A DNA stretch of 64,000 nucleotides, taken from assembly GCA_938002255.1 (NCBI GenBank), contig CALLAL010000009.1, forward strand, positions 124,001 through 188,000, given 5' to 3'. This document shows positions 57,007-63,931 of this stretch, one piece after another (the first letter of the stretch is position 1; the number at the start of each line of letters is the position of its first letter). Under the pieces are notes generated by a model. The model searched no databases. It saw only the letters and a program-made list of their open reading frames with translations, and was not told the origin of the DNA. The stretch is from an uncultured bacterium. Its GTDB lineage: Bacteria; Desulfobacterota; BSN033; UBA1163. The translations under genes and the position numbers were made by a program.

Positions 57007-58194
57007 TTAGATGTTGATGAGGGTTTGGTCAGTGAGGGTGAGGCGTTCTACCCCTGTGTCGGTAATAAGATAGTCGTCCTCCAGTCCGACGATCCCTCTG
57101 TCAGGGAAAACGAACATCGGTTCAAGGGCGATGACCATTCCTGGCTCAAGCTTCTGGTTAAAGCGTGGGGAGAGAATGGGGTATTCGTCGATCTCCAGCC
57201 CCAATCCATGACCTATAAACCTCACCTTTCCCTCTCCTTAGCCATTGAAGTATTTTCCATAGGCAGTCTTTTGAACCTTCTCGATGATGAGGCGATAAAG
57301 ATCAGACCAAGCGATGCCAGACTTGACCTCTTTGACGAAGAGCGTATGGATTTCAAGAGAGAGATCGTGTGCCCTTATCAGATCATCAGGCAGATGGCCG
57401 ATGACGAGGGTCCGGAACTGATCCGCAATATAGCCGTTGACTCCAACGCCATAGTCGATTCCGATGGGTTCGTTGGGTCTAATTTTCCGAACGCTTGCTC
57501 CCTGTGCCATGGCCGGCGTATTTCCTTTTCCACCATGGGGGCTATCAAGGAAGGAGACAGTCGCTCCGCTCTCTCCAGCAAGGACGAGGGCAATGGTCAT
57601 CTCCTAGTTCCATCCACGCATCCTCATTACACCCATATGGCCTTCCCTGCGGGCGATCCATGCGAGATAGCCATCCACTTCGAGCTCGGTCATTCCTTCA
57701 CGGATGATCTCTCTGATTTCCATGTATCCTTTATGGAGGATTGCGGCGGCTCTCCGAATATGCTCGACTTCATAATGCGTCTTAACCATCCGAAGCTTTA
57801 AAATGGCATCGGATATGTCGATCCACTTAAATTCCGGGTATGTCTGCTGATATCTGAAATAGAGGTTGACAGGGAGGACGTCCATTTCGAGGCCAATCTT
57901 TTTATGATTCAGCCATCCAAAGTCTTTCAGGACTTTTTTGATCTTGTTTCTGCCGACCACCGGAATGATGTTTTTTAAGGGAGATTCCTGCCGGGCCCTC
58001 TCAAGGCCCTTTTGGACCATAAGCACAGGTTCTCCCTGTCGCGGGATGAAGAGGACGGAGGACTGAATCGTTCCCGAGAAGTAAAAGAGATCCACATTCT
58101 GCAGGATAAAGGATCCATCCAAACCCCTCTCCGAAAGAGCCTACTGGAACTTTCTAATCCGAGATTCAATTTCTCCTGCCGGAACGGTTTTCAT
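57007..58194 (-). pseudogene. M24 (Xaa-Pro) metallopeptidase gene with three in-frame stop codons
   Basis: On the minus strand one uninterrupted frame of 396 codons runs from ATG 58194 to 57007 but contains TAG at codon 18 (58141-58143), TAG at codon 197 (57604-57606) and TAA at codon 319 (57238-57240). Across all three the protein homology continues without a shift: IRKFQ*ALSERGLDG, MRGWN*EMTIALV and YFNG*GEGKVRFIG. The metal ligands of M24 peptidases are otherwise intact: GIDYGVGVNGYIADQFRT (two Asp), GHGLGLEIDEY (His), and IALEPMFVF with GLEDDYLIT (two Glu). The ATG lies in the last codons of the upstream MFS gene. The most likely reading is a recent pseudogene. Confidence 0.85.
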
Positions 58195-59416: not shown

Positions 59417-60442
59417 TTATCCTAAGAAGATTTTCAAAATTTCATCCCGGGACACAGGGTTTAGCATTTTTTTCTTCTTTCCTTCAACTGCCAGTGCCCT
59501 TGCTCGACCTTGCCTTACCCTGCCGATCACTCGGAGAGGAATCGAAGCCCTTTTAAATGCTCTTTCAAGAGAAGGAAGGTCTTTTGGGGAGAGGGTCAGA
59601 AGCAATGATCCTGATGCAATCGTTCTTAGAGGATCGAGACCAAATTCGGCGCAAAGGATCTTTGACTCTTTGTAAACGAAGACATCCTTGAGATCGACTT
59701 CAAATTCTTTTTCCGAGGCGATTGCCATCTCAACAATCCCATTAATCACGCCTCCTTCTGTGGGGTCGTGCATGGAATGGATTTTTGCAGAGCGGGTGGC
59801 AATCTGAGCCACCTGAAGCACATCGATTCCTGGGTGGAAAATAAAATGTTTTGCCCTTTTAAGGAACAAGGAAGAGAATCCCTTTCCTAAAAGCTCTTTT
59901 TCTTTTTCTCTCGCAATGATCGAAGTTCCTTCTATACAGACTCCTTTTGCCATCAGAAGGAGATCACCCGGTTTTGCACCGCCTGTCTGAACGAGTTTTC
60001 CCTTCTTTACCGCCCCGATCATGTGGCCCGAGAGAATGATTCTGTCCAACCCGGGAGTGATCTCTGTGTGGCCTCCAACGAAGGAGAGGTTAAAATGGCG
60101 GCAGGCATTATAAATCTGGCGAAAGATTTTAAGAATGGTCTTCTCCTCTGAACCTCTTTCCGGGAAGAGAAGCGTAGCCAGGAAATATTTTGGAGTGGCT
60201 CCCCGGGTGGCAATGTCATTGAGATTAACCACGACACCGTAATACCCGATCTCTTCTGTTGTAAAAGTGATCGGATCCGAGGTGACCACCCAAAAATTCT
60301 TCGATTCTTTTCCGGGATCGATCACGGCAGCATCTTCTCCGATTTCTGGACCGAGAAGGACCGTGGGATCGATAATGGAATATTTTTTTAAAACCTTCTC
60401 GAGCAGATGGAGAGGAAGCTTCCCGGATTGCATCATAACCAT
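59417..60442 (-). CDS. AIR-synthase/HypE-like ATP-dependent protein
   Basis: The 341-residue protein has the PurM/HypE fold: GPEIGEDAAVIDPG (about 31-44), DPITFTTEEIGYYGVVVNLN with NDIATRGATPKYF, GHTEITPGLDRIILSGHMIG and HDPTEGGVINGIVEMAI. It lacks the C-terminal cysteine tail of true HypE, so hydrogenase maturation is not implied; it resembles the AIR-synthase-related proteins of unknown substrate found in anaerobes. The related SelD fold is another member of this superfamily. It starts just after the bidirectional terminator region. Confidence 0.82.
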   Translation of the reverse strand: MVMMQSGKLPLHLLEKVLKKYSIIDPTVLLGPEIGEDAAVIDPGKESKNFWVVTSDPITFTTEEIGYYGVVVNLNDIATRGATPKYFLATLLFPERGSEEKTILKIFRQIYNACRHFNLSFVGGHTEITPGLDRIILSGHMIGAVKKGKLVQTGGAKPGDLLLMAKGVCIEGTSIIAREKEKELLGKGFSSLFLKRAKHFIFHPGIDVLQVAQIATRSAKIHSMHDPTEGGVINGIVEMAIASEKEFEVDLKDVFVYKESKILCAEFGLDPLRTIASGSLLLTLSPKDLPSLERAFKRASIPLRVIGRVRQGRARALAVEGKKKKMLNPVSRDEILKIFLG

Positions 60443-60540: not shown

Positions 60541-60575
60541 AAAAAAGCCCTGGGCCATTTCCCCAGGGCTTTTTG
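60541..60575 (-). terminator. Intrinsic terminator of the phenylphosphate-synthase-like operon
   Basis: GCCCTGGG (60547-60554) and CCCAGGGC (60562-60569) form eight perfect pairs around an eight-base loop. Read on the minus strand it ends in a run of T's; A and T runs on both sides make it work in both directions. Confidence 0.9.
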
Positions 60576-60595
60576 ATCTATTCATGGTGGTCTAT

Positions 60596-61660
60596 CTACA
60601 TGTTAATTTTGACCTTTGACATCGCTTTTTCCATGAGTAGTTCGTAGGCACTCTTTTTCCCAAGAATGGGTTCTTTTTTCTTCTGACTCCAGACCGTTTC
60701 CGGCCGGCTTTGTACTAAGAAGATATTAAAAGGAAAGGGTTTGTGTCGATCAATCGACCATTCTGTATCCTGAGGGCAACCGTAATAGTCTTCGATCTTT
60801 TTCGCATATCTTGCCAGTTCTAAAGCCTCATCATCCTCGATACATTGGATCTCCCGTCTGTCTGGAGAGACATCTCTATGGACCACTTCCTTTTTCCGAC
60901 TGTCGAAAACACATTCCGTCTCTTTGATGGAAATCTCCTTTTCAAGGATCATCGTCACCTTATCGACTACAAACTTATCAGGATTGCAGAGTCCAGCCAC
61001 TACGGTCTCTCCCAACCCCCAATTGCCTTCGATCACTACTTTGGATGGGTCGCCATTGATGGGATTGATCGTGAACATTACGCCAGCTGCCCGGGCATCA
61101 ACAATTTTTTGAACCCCTACACTGATGTGAACTTTCTCATGGGGAAAACCCATCTTCATCCGATAAGCGATCGCCCTGGGGGTGAAGAGGCTTGCCATAC
61201 ATTCTTTGATTTTTAAAAGGACTTCATCAATTCCCTGAATCCAGAGAAAAGTATCTTGCTGACCGGCAAAGCTAGCTCCAGGGAGATCTTCTGCGGTGGC
61301 ACTGGAACGTACTGCCACGGGGAGGTCCTGCATATCAAAGACGCTGGACAGGGCTTGATAGTTTGAGCTAATTTCCTCTTCCAACTTTTTAGAAAATGGA
61401 GTCTCCATCATCATTTCCTTGATTTTCCTGCTGGCTTCCTCAAGGGCAGCGATGTCCTGAGGATCGATCTTTTTCAGAATTTCTTCCACGTGTTCTTTTA
61501 AAGTGCCCGAGAAAAAGTCGAGGTAAGCATCTGTCGTGACGGAAAAACCCGGAGGCACAGGAATACCCGCCCGGATGAGTTCCCCCAGGCTGGCGTTTTT
61601 ACCTCCGACTAATGCAAGGGCTTCTTTACCTGCTCGATCAAACCAAAGTGTGTATGGCAT
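60596..61660 (-). CDS. PEP-synthase-like ATP-binding subunit, phenylphosphate synthase PpsB-like
   Basis: The 354-residue protein is only the N-terminal ATP-grasp part of PEP synthase: LVGGKNASLGELIRAGIPVP (about 18-37), AVRSSATAEDLPGASFAGQQ (about 117-136), ARAAGVMFTINPINGDPSK and GNWGLGETVVAGLCNPDKF. It has no swivelling histidine or PEP-binding domain; those functions must come from a partner, here the gene upstream at 61775-63622. This split is that of phenylphosphate synthase proteins 2 and 1. I use ATG 61660, six bases after AGGAG, rather than an ATG seven codons earlier. Confidence 0.88.
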   Translation of the reverse strand: MPYTLWFDRAGKEALALVGGKNASLGELIRAGIPVPPGFSVTTDAYLDFFSGTLKEHVEEILKKIDPQDIAALEEASRKIKEMMMETPFSKKLEEEISSNYQALSSVFDMQDLPVAVRSSATAEDLPGASFAGQQDTFLWIQGIDEVLLKIKECMASLFTPRAIAYRMKMGFPHEKVHISVGVQKIVDARAAGVMFTINPINGDPSKVVIEGNWGLGETVVAGLCNPDKFVVDKVTMILEKEISIKETECVFDSRKKEVVHRDVSPDRREIQCIEDDEALELARYAKKIEDYYGCPQDTEWSIDRHKPFPFNIFLVQSRPETVWSQKKKEPILGKKSAYELLMEKAMSKVKINM

Positions 61661-61701
61661 AGCAAACTCCTGTTCATCCATGTTGCTACGATGGGGCTGG
61701 A

Positions 61702-61752
61702 TGTTGGAGGTTACTTCCTAATCCTTTAAGCAAATTTTTTGAACCTCCAACA
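61702..61752. repeat. Inverted repeat between the two PEP-synthase-like genes
   Basis: TGTTGGAGGTT at 61702-61712 is the exact reverse complement of AACCTCCAACA at 61742-61752, with 29 bases between. In the transcript it would form a hairpin between the two coding regions; it could affect mRNA processing or relative expression. Confidence 0.7.
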
Positions 61753-61774
61753 CCAACCTCAAACGTCCTGCCTG

Positions 61775-63622
61775 TTAAGCTCTTTTCAATATTTTTACAA
61801 TTCCTGTATTTCCATCGACATGGACCGTATCACCGGTTTTGAGCACGGACGTTGCGATTCCCGTACCGGTGACGGATGGCACGCCGTACTCTCTGCAGAC
61901 AATGGCGGCATGGCTGGTGAGGCCACCGATATCTGTAATGGAGGCCTTCATCTTTGTAAAGACTGGGGCCCAAGCAGGATTGGTGGTCGGGCAGACAAGA
62001 ATCTCACCCTGCTGGACCTCCGTGATCTCCTCAAGACGCTTAACCACACGGACTTTTCCTTCAGCCACACCTGCAGAAGAGGCAAACCCCTTCAGTTCAG
62101 TAACTTCCGTTGGAACGACTGCCACGCCTTTGAGCCATTCCTTCACTTTTTCAGTTGTAATTCCCCAGAGCATAATGGTGAAGGGTTCTGCCACTTCCTC
62201 TGGCGGGGTCCCAAGGGCAGGGACCGGGGTCCATTTTTTGGCTGCCTCTAAGATCTTCTTCCTCTTTTCAGCCTTAGCCTGCCAGTATTGCCCTCCAGAA
62301 GGTACTCCTTCGCCCAAGGCCCATGTGGTGGCTAAATCTTCCATAAGATAAGGAACTTCAAAACGATTAAAAAGATAAATGTCATCGGGTTCTTTTAGAA
62401 TCCCATATTTAACAAGGACATTACCAAACTGCCTCACCTTTTCGAACCAGATGGTATGGAGCCAGTGTTCCACCCAGAAGAGATGGTCCTCTGCATATTT
62501 ATAGATGGTTCGGACGGCTTTATAGGTATCATCAAAGGATTTTTTGTCTTCATCGGTCTTAATCAGTTTACGATACTGCTCTGCTAGCTCGGCCCTCTCT
62601 TTATCAATATTAGGAAGATCTCTCTCGATCTTTTCCCCTTTTTCGATCCTTTCAATGTAACTTTTCAAATACCCAAATGGGATTTCAGGTTTGCTAATCC
62701 AGCTTCCCTCATAGTGATACCAGCCACTTCCACAGGAGACGTAGAACCAGGGATCCTTTGATTTTTCATATTCGACCAGCCAGTCTCTTCCTTCAGCAGA
62801 CTGTCTCAACTTTTCGATTTTTTCGGAAACCGAGAGATCGCTTTTGAGCAACTTGGAAAGTTCGGGAATGGCGGCGGCGATCTTTGCCAACCTTCCTAAC
62901 TCTTCTTCTGGACGAAACATCTGAACATAAGCCCCTGCAACCAGTTTGCCAATAGTACTTTCCCCAATCCCAGGAAAGAGCTTGCGGCAGGTATCCGCAA
63001 AGAGCAGATAGGCAAGATAGGCAAGGTTGAGGTATTGGAAATGAAACTGCCAACCTTTAATCATCAGATTGACCAGCCGATCCCAGCCTTCGATCAGCTC
63101 ATAGGAGGTATAAAAGCCCCTCGGTTCTGGGAAAACTTTGTCATCTTCTTCGAACTTGGGGAATTCTGTGGGAACTAAAATATTTGCCATCTCCTCTCCA
63201 AGGGCGCGAAACTTTTTAAGCCACAAGCCCCAGAGGGCATCATAATGGTCAAAGACATAAAAGACCCGCTTCTGAAATAAAGCGGCCTTCTCTCCAATGA
63301 TTTCTGGAGGGGGTGGAGCAACGGGTGTAATATACATGTAGCAGCCAACCATTCTCTGGGCAATGCCTTGAGCAGGCGGGATACAAAAGACCCGTGTAGT
63401 ATACTGGGACAATGCGATCTGCCAAGCTTCCTGAAAGATGAGGTCAAGCGGATACATGACTTCCGGTGCATGGATTTTGTCATGGAACCAGAAATGCTTC
63501 TCTTCCCACTCTTTCCTCTCTTTGCTGAAGATATAATAGGGTGGGTACATCTCCTCCCATCCTTCGAGTTCTTTTGGAAACTCCACCTCTAACGGCATAG
63601 GAAAACCTTTTTTCTCAACCAT
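61775..63622 (-). CDS. PEP-synthase-like phosphohistidine subunit, phenylphosphate synthase PpsA-like
   Basis: The 615-residue protein has about 480 residues without motifs I can name, rich in Trp and Tyr (for example YVSCGSGWYHYEGSWI), then a C-terminal swivelling domain of the PEP-utilising enzyme family: GEILVCPTTNPAWAPVFTKM and IGGLTSHAAIVCREYGVPSV, with the phosphorylated His at 571. It lacks the PEP/pyruvate TIM barrel. Size and layout match protein 1 of phenylphosphate synthase, which with the ATP-binding protein 2 phosphorylates phenol using ATP; the family also includes pairs for other hydroxylated substrates, so phenol itself is not proven. No phenylphosphate carboxylase gene is within the window. 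ATG 63622 follows AAGGAGG by seven bases. Confidence 0.85.
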   Translation of the reverse strand: MVEKKGFPMPLEVEFPKELEGWEEMYPPYYIFSKERKEWEEKHFWFHDKIHAPEVMYPLDLIFQEAWQIALSQYTTRVFCIPPAQGIAQRMVGCYMYITPVAPPPPEIIGEKAALFQKRVFYVFDHYDALWGLWLKKFRALGEEMANILVPTEFPKFEEDDKVFPEPRGFYTSYELIEGWDRLVNLMIKGWQFHFQYLNLAYLAYLLFADTCRKLFPGIGESTIGKLVAGAYVQMFRPEEELGRLAKIAAAIPELSKLLKSDLSVSEKIEKLRQSAEGRDWLVEYEKSKDPWFYVSCGSGWYHYEGSWISKPEIPFGYLKSYIERIEKGEKIERDLPNIDKERAELAEQYRKLIKTDEDKKSFDDTYKAVRTIYKYAEDHLFWVEHWLHTIWFEKVRQFGNVLVKYGILKEPDDIYLFNRFEVPYLMEDLATTWALGEGVPSGGQYWQAKAEKRKKILEAAKKWTPVPALGTPPEEVAEPFTIMLWGITTEKVKEWLKGVAVVPTEVTELKGFASSAGVAEGKVRVVKRLEEITEVQQGEILVCPTTNPAWAPVFTKMKASITDIGGLTSHAAIVCREYGVPSVTGTGIATSVLKTGDTVHVDGNTGIVKILKRA

Positions 63623-63931
63623 GCTTGCTCCTCCTTTTAGATTGAATAAATGGAATAAGTGCTTTTTTTAATTAAATCTTTCGAACTCTGACTTCACCTC
63701 CTTTTTTTAAAGATGGTTTCCCCCTCAAGGTTATGGCACTTCATTTAGCCCTTGTTTATGTTTCCAAAAGAATCCGTTTGGTTGGATGAGTCGAAGGAAG
63801 GAATCGAACCCACACCTCTATCAACAGTATGATTTATTATCTTTTTTCATTGGCCAATTGTCAATATTTTTTTTGTTATAGAGGAATTACTTAGGGTTAT
63901 GGCCTGGGGGCAAGAAATCAGGGTTTTAAGA
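63623..63931. other. Leader and promoter region of the phenylphosphate-synthase-like operon
   Basis: About 310 bases without a gene. It holds the promoter at 63836-63864 and a leader of roughly 205 bases before ATG 63622. On the minus strand, GTGTGGGTTCGATTCCTTCC (about 63800-63822) resembles a tRNA T-arm, but no cloverleaf can be built around it. Confidence 0.5.
63836..63864 (-). promoter_or_regulatory. Sigma-70 promoter with palindromic spacer
   Basis: On the minus strand TTGACA (63859-63864) and GATAAT (63836-63841) are exactly 17 bases apart. The spacer contains the perfect palindrome ATTGGCCAAT (63849-63858), a plausible repressor site placed to block RNA polymerase. Confidence 0.75.

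Follow-up and report, generated by a model that had tools for sequence, protein, structure and literature searches.

In the 64,000-nt stretch of contig CALLAL010000009.1 analyzed here (the window; GenBank assembly GCA_938002255.1, an uncultured bacterium of the Desulfobacterota), two adjacent minus-strand genes, ppsA and ppsB, resemble the genes of a two-subunit phenolic kinase. We put the probability at roughly 0.8 that ppsAB encodes an ATP-dependent phenylphosphate synthase partnered by a carboxylase encoded on another contig (C36) of the same genome, the two operons being switched together, probably by a LysR-type regulator via a shared upstream box. The enzyme would very probably prime phenol with phosphate for anaerobic degradation. 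Enzymes of this kind are known; what is unusual is the layout, with kinase and carboxylase in two separated operons that have matching promoters. The features that carry this reading are as follows.

61775-63622, minus strand: ppsA-like gene, substrate-binding and His571 swivel subunit, 615 aa (open reading frame [ORF], PF00391, His571 motif, fold like that of rifampin phosphotransferase [RPH])
60596-61660, minus strand: ppsB-like gene, ATP-grasp subunit, 354 aa (PF01326, match to structure 9goj, start set by relatives)
63836-63864, minus strand: ppsA promoter, TTGACA-17-GATAAT (11 of 12 consensus matches, core kept in five same-genus relatives)
63886-63900, minus strand: box ATAAC-CCTAA-GTAAT upstream of the ppsA promoter, candidate LysR box in common with ppcB (conservation, shared pattern)

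The initial annotation had described a split dikinase of the phenylphosphate synthase kind, related to phosphoenolpyruvate (PEP) synthase and with a catalytic swivel histidine at residue 571, and the ORFs, domains and motif bear this out. The alpha (swivel His) and beta (ATP-grasp) subunits are encoded in one operon. The PF00391 swivel domain occupies residues 537 to 607, at the end of PpsA, where the motif TDIGGLTSH ends exactly at the catalytic His571, and PpsB carries the PF01326 ATP-binding domain (PPDK/PEP-synthase type; E value, 2.8e-115). The mechanical ORF of ppsB spans 60596-61681 on the minus strand (361 aa); in an alignment of relatives, their proteins begin with MPYTLWF, which places the likely start at 61660. 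A domain scan of both chains found a PEP-binding barrel in neither. The architecture of PEP synthase, a C-terminal barrel fused to the swivel and ATP domains, is not seen, and PF00391 and PF01326 lie on separate chains. PpsA matches the unnamed NCBIfam subfamily NF006153 (878 bits; cut-off, 578), and PpsB matches structure 9goj (E value, 4.8e-78), an entry that appears, by its name and length, to be HpeI. An AlphaFold model of PpsA built from 40 aligned sequences (mean pLDDT, 80.3) resembles RPH (5fbu) along its whole length (TM-score, 0.60; 17% identity), and no other structure gave a comparable match. HpeH, from the two-component phenolic kinase HpeHI, has the same RPH-like arrangement, according to part of PMC12167813. 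The two proteins are best read as the alpha and beta subunits of phenylphosphate synthase.

The genome to which the window belongs (3.27 Mb, 98.46% complete) was searched for UbiD. Four places were found, of which three are neighbors on contig C36 (locus L096) and the fourth passes the menaquinone-pathway model TIGR03701. The order on C36 is ppcB, flavin reductase, two HAD proteins, ppcA, gamma, another UbiD and UbiX, and a LysR gene is oriented divergently. PpcB (TIGR02724, 692 bits; cut-off, 469) and PpcA (TIGR02723, 728 bits; cut-off, 565) both exceed the equivalog thresholds. The 98-aa gamma protein passes PF09662 (58.4; cut-off, 25) but stays under the TIGR02725 cut-off (60 against 136). 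Alpha, beta and gamma subunits of phenylphosphate carboxylase are all encoded in this genome. In another member of the family, with a PpsA 85% identical to that of the window, the orthologous ppc cluster and LysR gene directly adjoin ppsAB (locus L011; PpcB 92.8% and PpcA 85.2% identical to those on C36). In the window's own genome, 9.6 kb separate the ppsA start from the end of its contig and 1.8 kb separate the ppcB start from the end of C36, so the operons are at least approximately 11 kb apart. The initial annotation had taken the operon for self-contained and the carboxylase for missing, and had proposed on that ground that the substrate may differ. The complete-looking cluster on C36, which a search for carboxylase subunits outside the locus recovers, the linkage in L011 and the matching promoters leave all three statements unsupported.

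Alignment of the regions upstream of ppsA and ppcB reveals a single architecture, consisting of an ATAAC-N5-GTWAT box, a stretch of about 20 nt that holds an ATAA/A-rich element, TTGACA, 17 nt (18 nt in two sites) and AAAGATAAT. Box, distance and -10 element are constant across sites, while spacers and box centers vary. When this composite pattern was sought without mismatches in 19 genomes, 15 matches were obtained in 10 of them; because some of these genomes served to define the pattern, its presence in them is partly circular, but its absence elsewhere is not. The reversed pattern gave 0 matches, and a single strand of random sequence (19.2 Mb, order-1 model, composition as in the window) had no match to the composite pattern either. 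By gene coordinates, six matches lie at ppsA, nine at ppcB (one of them at the more distant ppcB-like gene of genome G019) and none elsewhere. The window's own genome has exactly two, at ppsA and ppcB. Among the ten genus members, the pattern stands at 6/6 ppsA genes of the window's lineage and 8/8 ppcB genes with assembled starts (not counted: ppcB of G011 and G012 and ppsA of G014, at a contig end; ppsA of G010, from another lineage; ppsA of G012 and G013, not found).

The box forms a T-N11-A dyad, which is the form of LysR boxes. At ppcB, the box falls between this gene and the divergently oriented LysR gene, whose product is therefore the natural candidate for the regulator. The box occurs at both operons and at the divergent regulator gene, and the composite promoter marks exactly the two genes that are unlinked in the window's genome and linked in L011. 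This sequence evidence suggests that ppsAB is probably one half of a split, LysR-controlled phenol regulon. In other families, of 28 loci where ppsA and a LysR gene are directly divergent neighbors, only one has even a relaxed dyad; the box therefore seems confined to the window's family and was rejected as a feature of other families. For the denitrifier Aromatoleum EbN1, the part of PMC10715001 considered here places the pps-ppc cluster under sigma-54/PheR. No LysR control of phenylphosphate carboxylase is described in the literature searched, the wider search covering titles and the openings of abstracts among the matches listed. A more specific proposal, which we hold to be somewhat favored, is that the LysR regulator beside ppcB would sense phenol or phenylphosphate and command two unlinked operons via one rigid composite promoter, a sigma-70/LysR wiring unlike sigma-54/PheR, and that the kinase module would be exchangeable within the genus. 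Exchange is suggested by G010, where the ppcB promoter is retained but the kinase comes from a different lineage: the PpsA that accompanies its standard carboxylase is 63% identical and falls among Chloroflexota rows.

Related loci were compared as the best 80 of 110, with one genome per species. UbiD occurs in 41/80 and UbiX in 33/80 (clusters read as such from profile matches), and UbiD in 35/52 of the loci whose sequence continues for 4 kb or more beyond ppsA. The tree of PpsA homologues that had initially been proposed as a check (quick method, 102 rows, local match segments) places the window in a firm clade of 13 rows (support, 100); its deep joins lie on long branches and were not used. 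The window's family comprises 17 genomes, its own included. PpsA and a PpcA orthologue occur together in ten (the PpsA of G014 being a fragment at a contig edge) and neither occurs in two; on its own, this co-occurrence involves too few genomes to establish linkage. G024, from which L011 comes, is the only one with both on one contig. Five genomes also encode distant PpsA homologues of about 570 aa with 26 to 28% identity (G012 C144, G021 C245, G022 C145, G023 C167 and G024 C147), which perhaps represent the Pas-alpha (aniline-type) branch; the one in G012, a genome without the 615-aa PpsA, shares a contig with the ppc cluster. An 85% identical PpsA in another family (G091 C6:71331-73175, locus L154), with UbiD close by on the contig, suggests transfer between families.

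Two residues before His571, PpsA carries Thr569. The corresponding Thr in PEP synthase is a regulatory phosphorylation site. The PEP-synthase regulatory kinase family PF03618 has 0 matches in the window's genome, and Thr569 was accordingly rejected as the target of such a kinase. The motif is present in 100 of the 102 PpsA rows, with Thr in 91 and Met in nine, namely Azoarcus sp. KH32C, three further plasmid proteins (L129, L131 and L132) and five relatives from lineages other than the window's. Met is also reported at this position in HpeH and the other homologues examined in the part of PMC12167813 considered.

The named phenylphosphate synthase/carboxylase sequence used for comparison was that of KH32C, with Thauera aromatica, Aromatoleum EbN1 and Desulfatiglans anilini named alongside. 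The KH32C plasmid carries ppsA-ppsB-CBS-ppcB-ppcD-ppcA-ppcG-UbiD-UbiX in one run. The system described here shares with it the two-subunit His-swivel dikinase and the ppcB-ppcD-ppcA-ppcG-UbiD-UbiX order; it differs in its separated kinase and carboxylase operons, the lack of a linked CBS subunit and Thr569 instead of Met. Some pps and ppc genes are likewise separated in D. anilini (part of PMC6114531). EbN1 differs by its sigma-54/PheR control from the candidate LysR-type box and sigma-70 promoter found here (PMC10715001, same part). HpeHI and CreHI are alike in domain division, catalytic His and the RPH-like fold of the large subunit, but ppsAB of the window lacks the P450 (Cre) or biotin carboxylase (Hpe) neighbors seen in L129 and L132, and the substrate here, unlike theirs, is presumably phenol. 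RPH itself shares the fold of the whole PpsA model, yet is one fused chain with another substrate (PMC12167813, in part).

In the proposed mechanism, PpsB would bind ATP and transfer its beta-phosphoryl group to PpsA at His571, yielding AMP and phosphate, and the swivel domain would hand the phosphate from His571 to the hydroxyl of phenol. The C36 carboxylase (ppcB, two delta-like HAD proteins, ppcA, ppcG, UbiD and UbiX) would convert phenylphosphate to 4-hydroxybenzoate, which would feed the benzoyl-CoA pathway. Contig C16 encodes BamA (TIGR03200, 549 bits; cut-off, 464) and 6-hydroxycyclohexenecarbonyl-CoA dehydrogenase (TIGR03201, 493 bits; cut-off, 339), as well as an aldehyde-ferredoxin-oxidoreductase-family protein that may be BamB-like. 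Both unlinked operons would be switched on together, probably by the LysR-type regulator divergent from ppcB, acting through the ATAAC-N5-GTWAT box that precedes the near-identical sigma-70 promoters by about 20 nt.

Several observations weigh against this reading. PpsA is only 40.5% identical to KH32C PpsA and has Thr in the catalytic motif, as opposed to the Met of KH32C-type proteins. The two delta-like HAD proteins on C36 are nearest to TIGR02726 but score 113 and 134 bits against a cut-off of 282, and the 4-hydroxybenzoyl-CoA reductase candidates also fall below their cut-offs (alpha, 768/995; gamma, 191/258; beta, 277/405). In the family, G012 and G013 have PpcA without a PpsA orthologue, and G019, G023 and G025 have PpsA without a PpcA orthologue; the UbiD of the latter three is a different one and, in G023 and G025, shares its contig with PpsA. 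The ppsA of L011 has a different promoter, without the box. Finally, no gene for a CBS (gamma) subunit is linked to ppsAB. The initial annotation had rightly noted that this third, activating protein is missing; the KH32C CBS protein has weak homologues elsewhere in the genome (31% on C16, 25% on C38). HpeHI functions with two components (part of PMC12167813) and assays of PasAB, which acts on aniline in D. anilini, used two subunits (part of PMC7500099); because of these two-component enzymes, the absent third subunit does not, by analogy, appear to tell against the function.

The same chemistry, paired with this UbiD-type carboxylase or a different one, could act on another substrate, either aniline or a phenolic such as p-cresol, catechol or a hydroxyphenyl ketone. 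CreHI acts on 4-cresol and HpeHI, which is promiscuous, on 4-hydroxyacetophenone, and PasAB converts aniline or phenol (PMC12167813 and PMC7500099, both in part); the low identity to KH32C PpsA points the same way. We nevertheless regard this as quite unlikely, as the partner passes the equivalog models for the alpha and beta subunits of phenylphosphate carboxylase, and the ppc cluster is contiguous with ppsAB in L011 and shares its promoter in the window's genome. As for aniline, the enzyme acting on it belongs to a different branch, since Pas-alpha of D. anilini is reported to be only 26.7% identical to Pps-alpha of the same organism (PMC7500099, same part). A detoxifying or antibiotic-modifying kinase like RPH, or a PEP synthase, is hardly credible: RPH is the sole whole-length match of the PpsA model and PpsB is close to the ATP domains of PEP synthases, but the two separate chains, the lack of a PEP-binding barrel and the 17% identity to RPH argue otherwise, as do the carboxylase partner, the shared promoter and a separate 861-aa PEP-synthase-like frame on contig C13.

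The regulatory part could be challenged if the shared promoter were a genus-wide strong promoter, or the box were bound by a non-LysR factor, with no regulon behind it. The deviant ppsA promoter of L011, where LysR and ppc adjoin, and the LysR-divergent ppsA genes of other families without the box are in line with this. A general promoter would match elsewhere too, but none of the 15 matches does; box, distance and -10 element are kept while spacers and box centers vary, and the ppcB box lies in the gap to the LysR gene. This alternative seems doubtful. Phenylphosphate synthase is favored because of the domains and His571, the RPH-like fold, the ppc cluster with its KH32C-like order, the linkage in L011 and the shared promoter, together with UbiD in 35/52 loci and the BamA and dehydrogenase scores.

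Three further signals lie at the ppsAB locus.

63849-63858, no strand assigned: palindrome ATTGGCCAAT, 10 bp, in the promoter spacer (not conserved)
61688-61766, no strand assigned: inverted repeat between ppsA and ppsB, 25 nt, 76% (repeat search)
60542-60574, minus strand: intrinsic terminator after ppsB, perfect 13-bp stem (60542-60554/60562-60574) and T run (repeat search)

The promoter, inverted repeat and terminator named by the initial annotation are all present. Alignment of the five same-genus relatives confirms the promoter core and spacing; the region first described ended just before the conserved box. The spacer palindrome exists as claimed but is absent in all five aligned relatives; it is probably incidental and was rejected as an operator. 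The gap between ppsA and ppsB contains a hairpin in most of ten loci compared. These hairpins are unlike one another in sequence, so a repetitive extragenic palindromic (REP)-like element is probable. The terminator was not among the results of the consensus scan that scored the promoter.

The ppsA leader (63625-63831, minus strand, about 210 nt) contains blocks conserved in six same-genus species, including a pyrimidine block and, a long way upstream of the start, an additional AAAAGGAGGTGA. RNAalifold pairs the pyrimidine block with the Shine-Dalgarno sequence (five of six leaders). An RNA switch hiding the Shine-Dalgarno sequence was dropped as an explanation, since, by pairing probabilities, the helix holds it in only 3/6 leaders, the window's not included. 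The block at 63790-63830, with T-arm-like letters on the minus strand, was considered as a tRNA remnant and rejected, as ARAGORN finds no tRNA; it has no convincing second copy in the genome and no Rfam match at the gathering score, and the same-genus alignment shows it to be a conserved part of the leader.

On one side, ppsAB is neighbored by AIR-synthase-like, MFS and creatinase-type proteins, and on the other by a TlpA-like thioredoxin. The AIR-synthase/HypE-like protein after ppsAB (59417-60442, minus strand) scores under every listed NCBIfam cut-off; its family also follows ppsAB in L005, L006, L007, L009 and L013. The creatinase/Xaa-Pro-peptidase-type gene (57238-57600 and 57604-58122, minus strand) appears to be split over two frames, as if by a frameshift, with Creatinase_N in one ORF and the remainder apparently in the next. 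Some family members have a protein of about 370 aa directly after ppsB (L005:8184-9296; counterparts in L006, L008, L010, L011 and L013), which has no Pfam or NCBIfam match and is missing in the window.

The Thr/Met difference splits phenolic kinases into two groups that are open to biochemical comparison. More generally, absent neighbors are a poor ground for inferring a new substrate: here, an apparently orphan enzyme becomes a placed step of a pathway. The analysis of the shared promoter names a candidate regulator, and this promoter provides a sequence handle with which genes of anaerobic phenol regulons that lie apart in the genome can be found in uncultured relatives.

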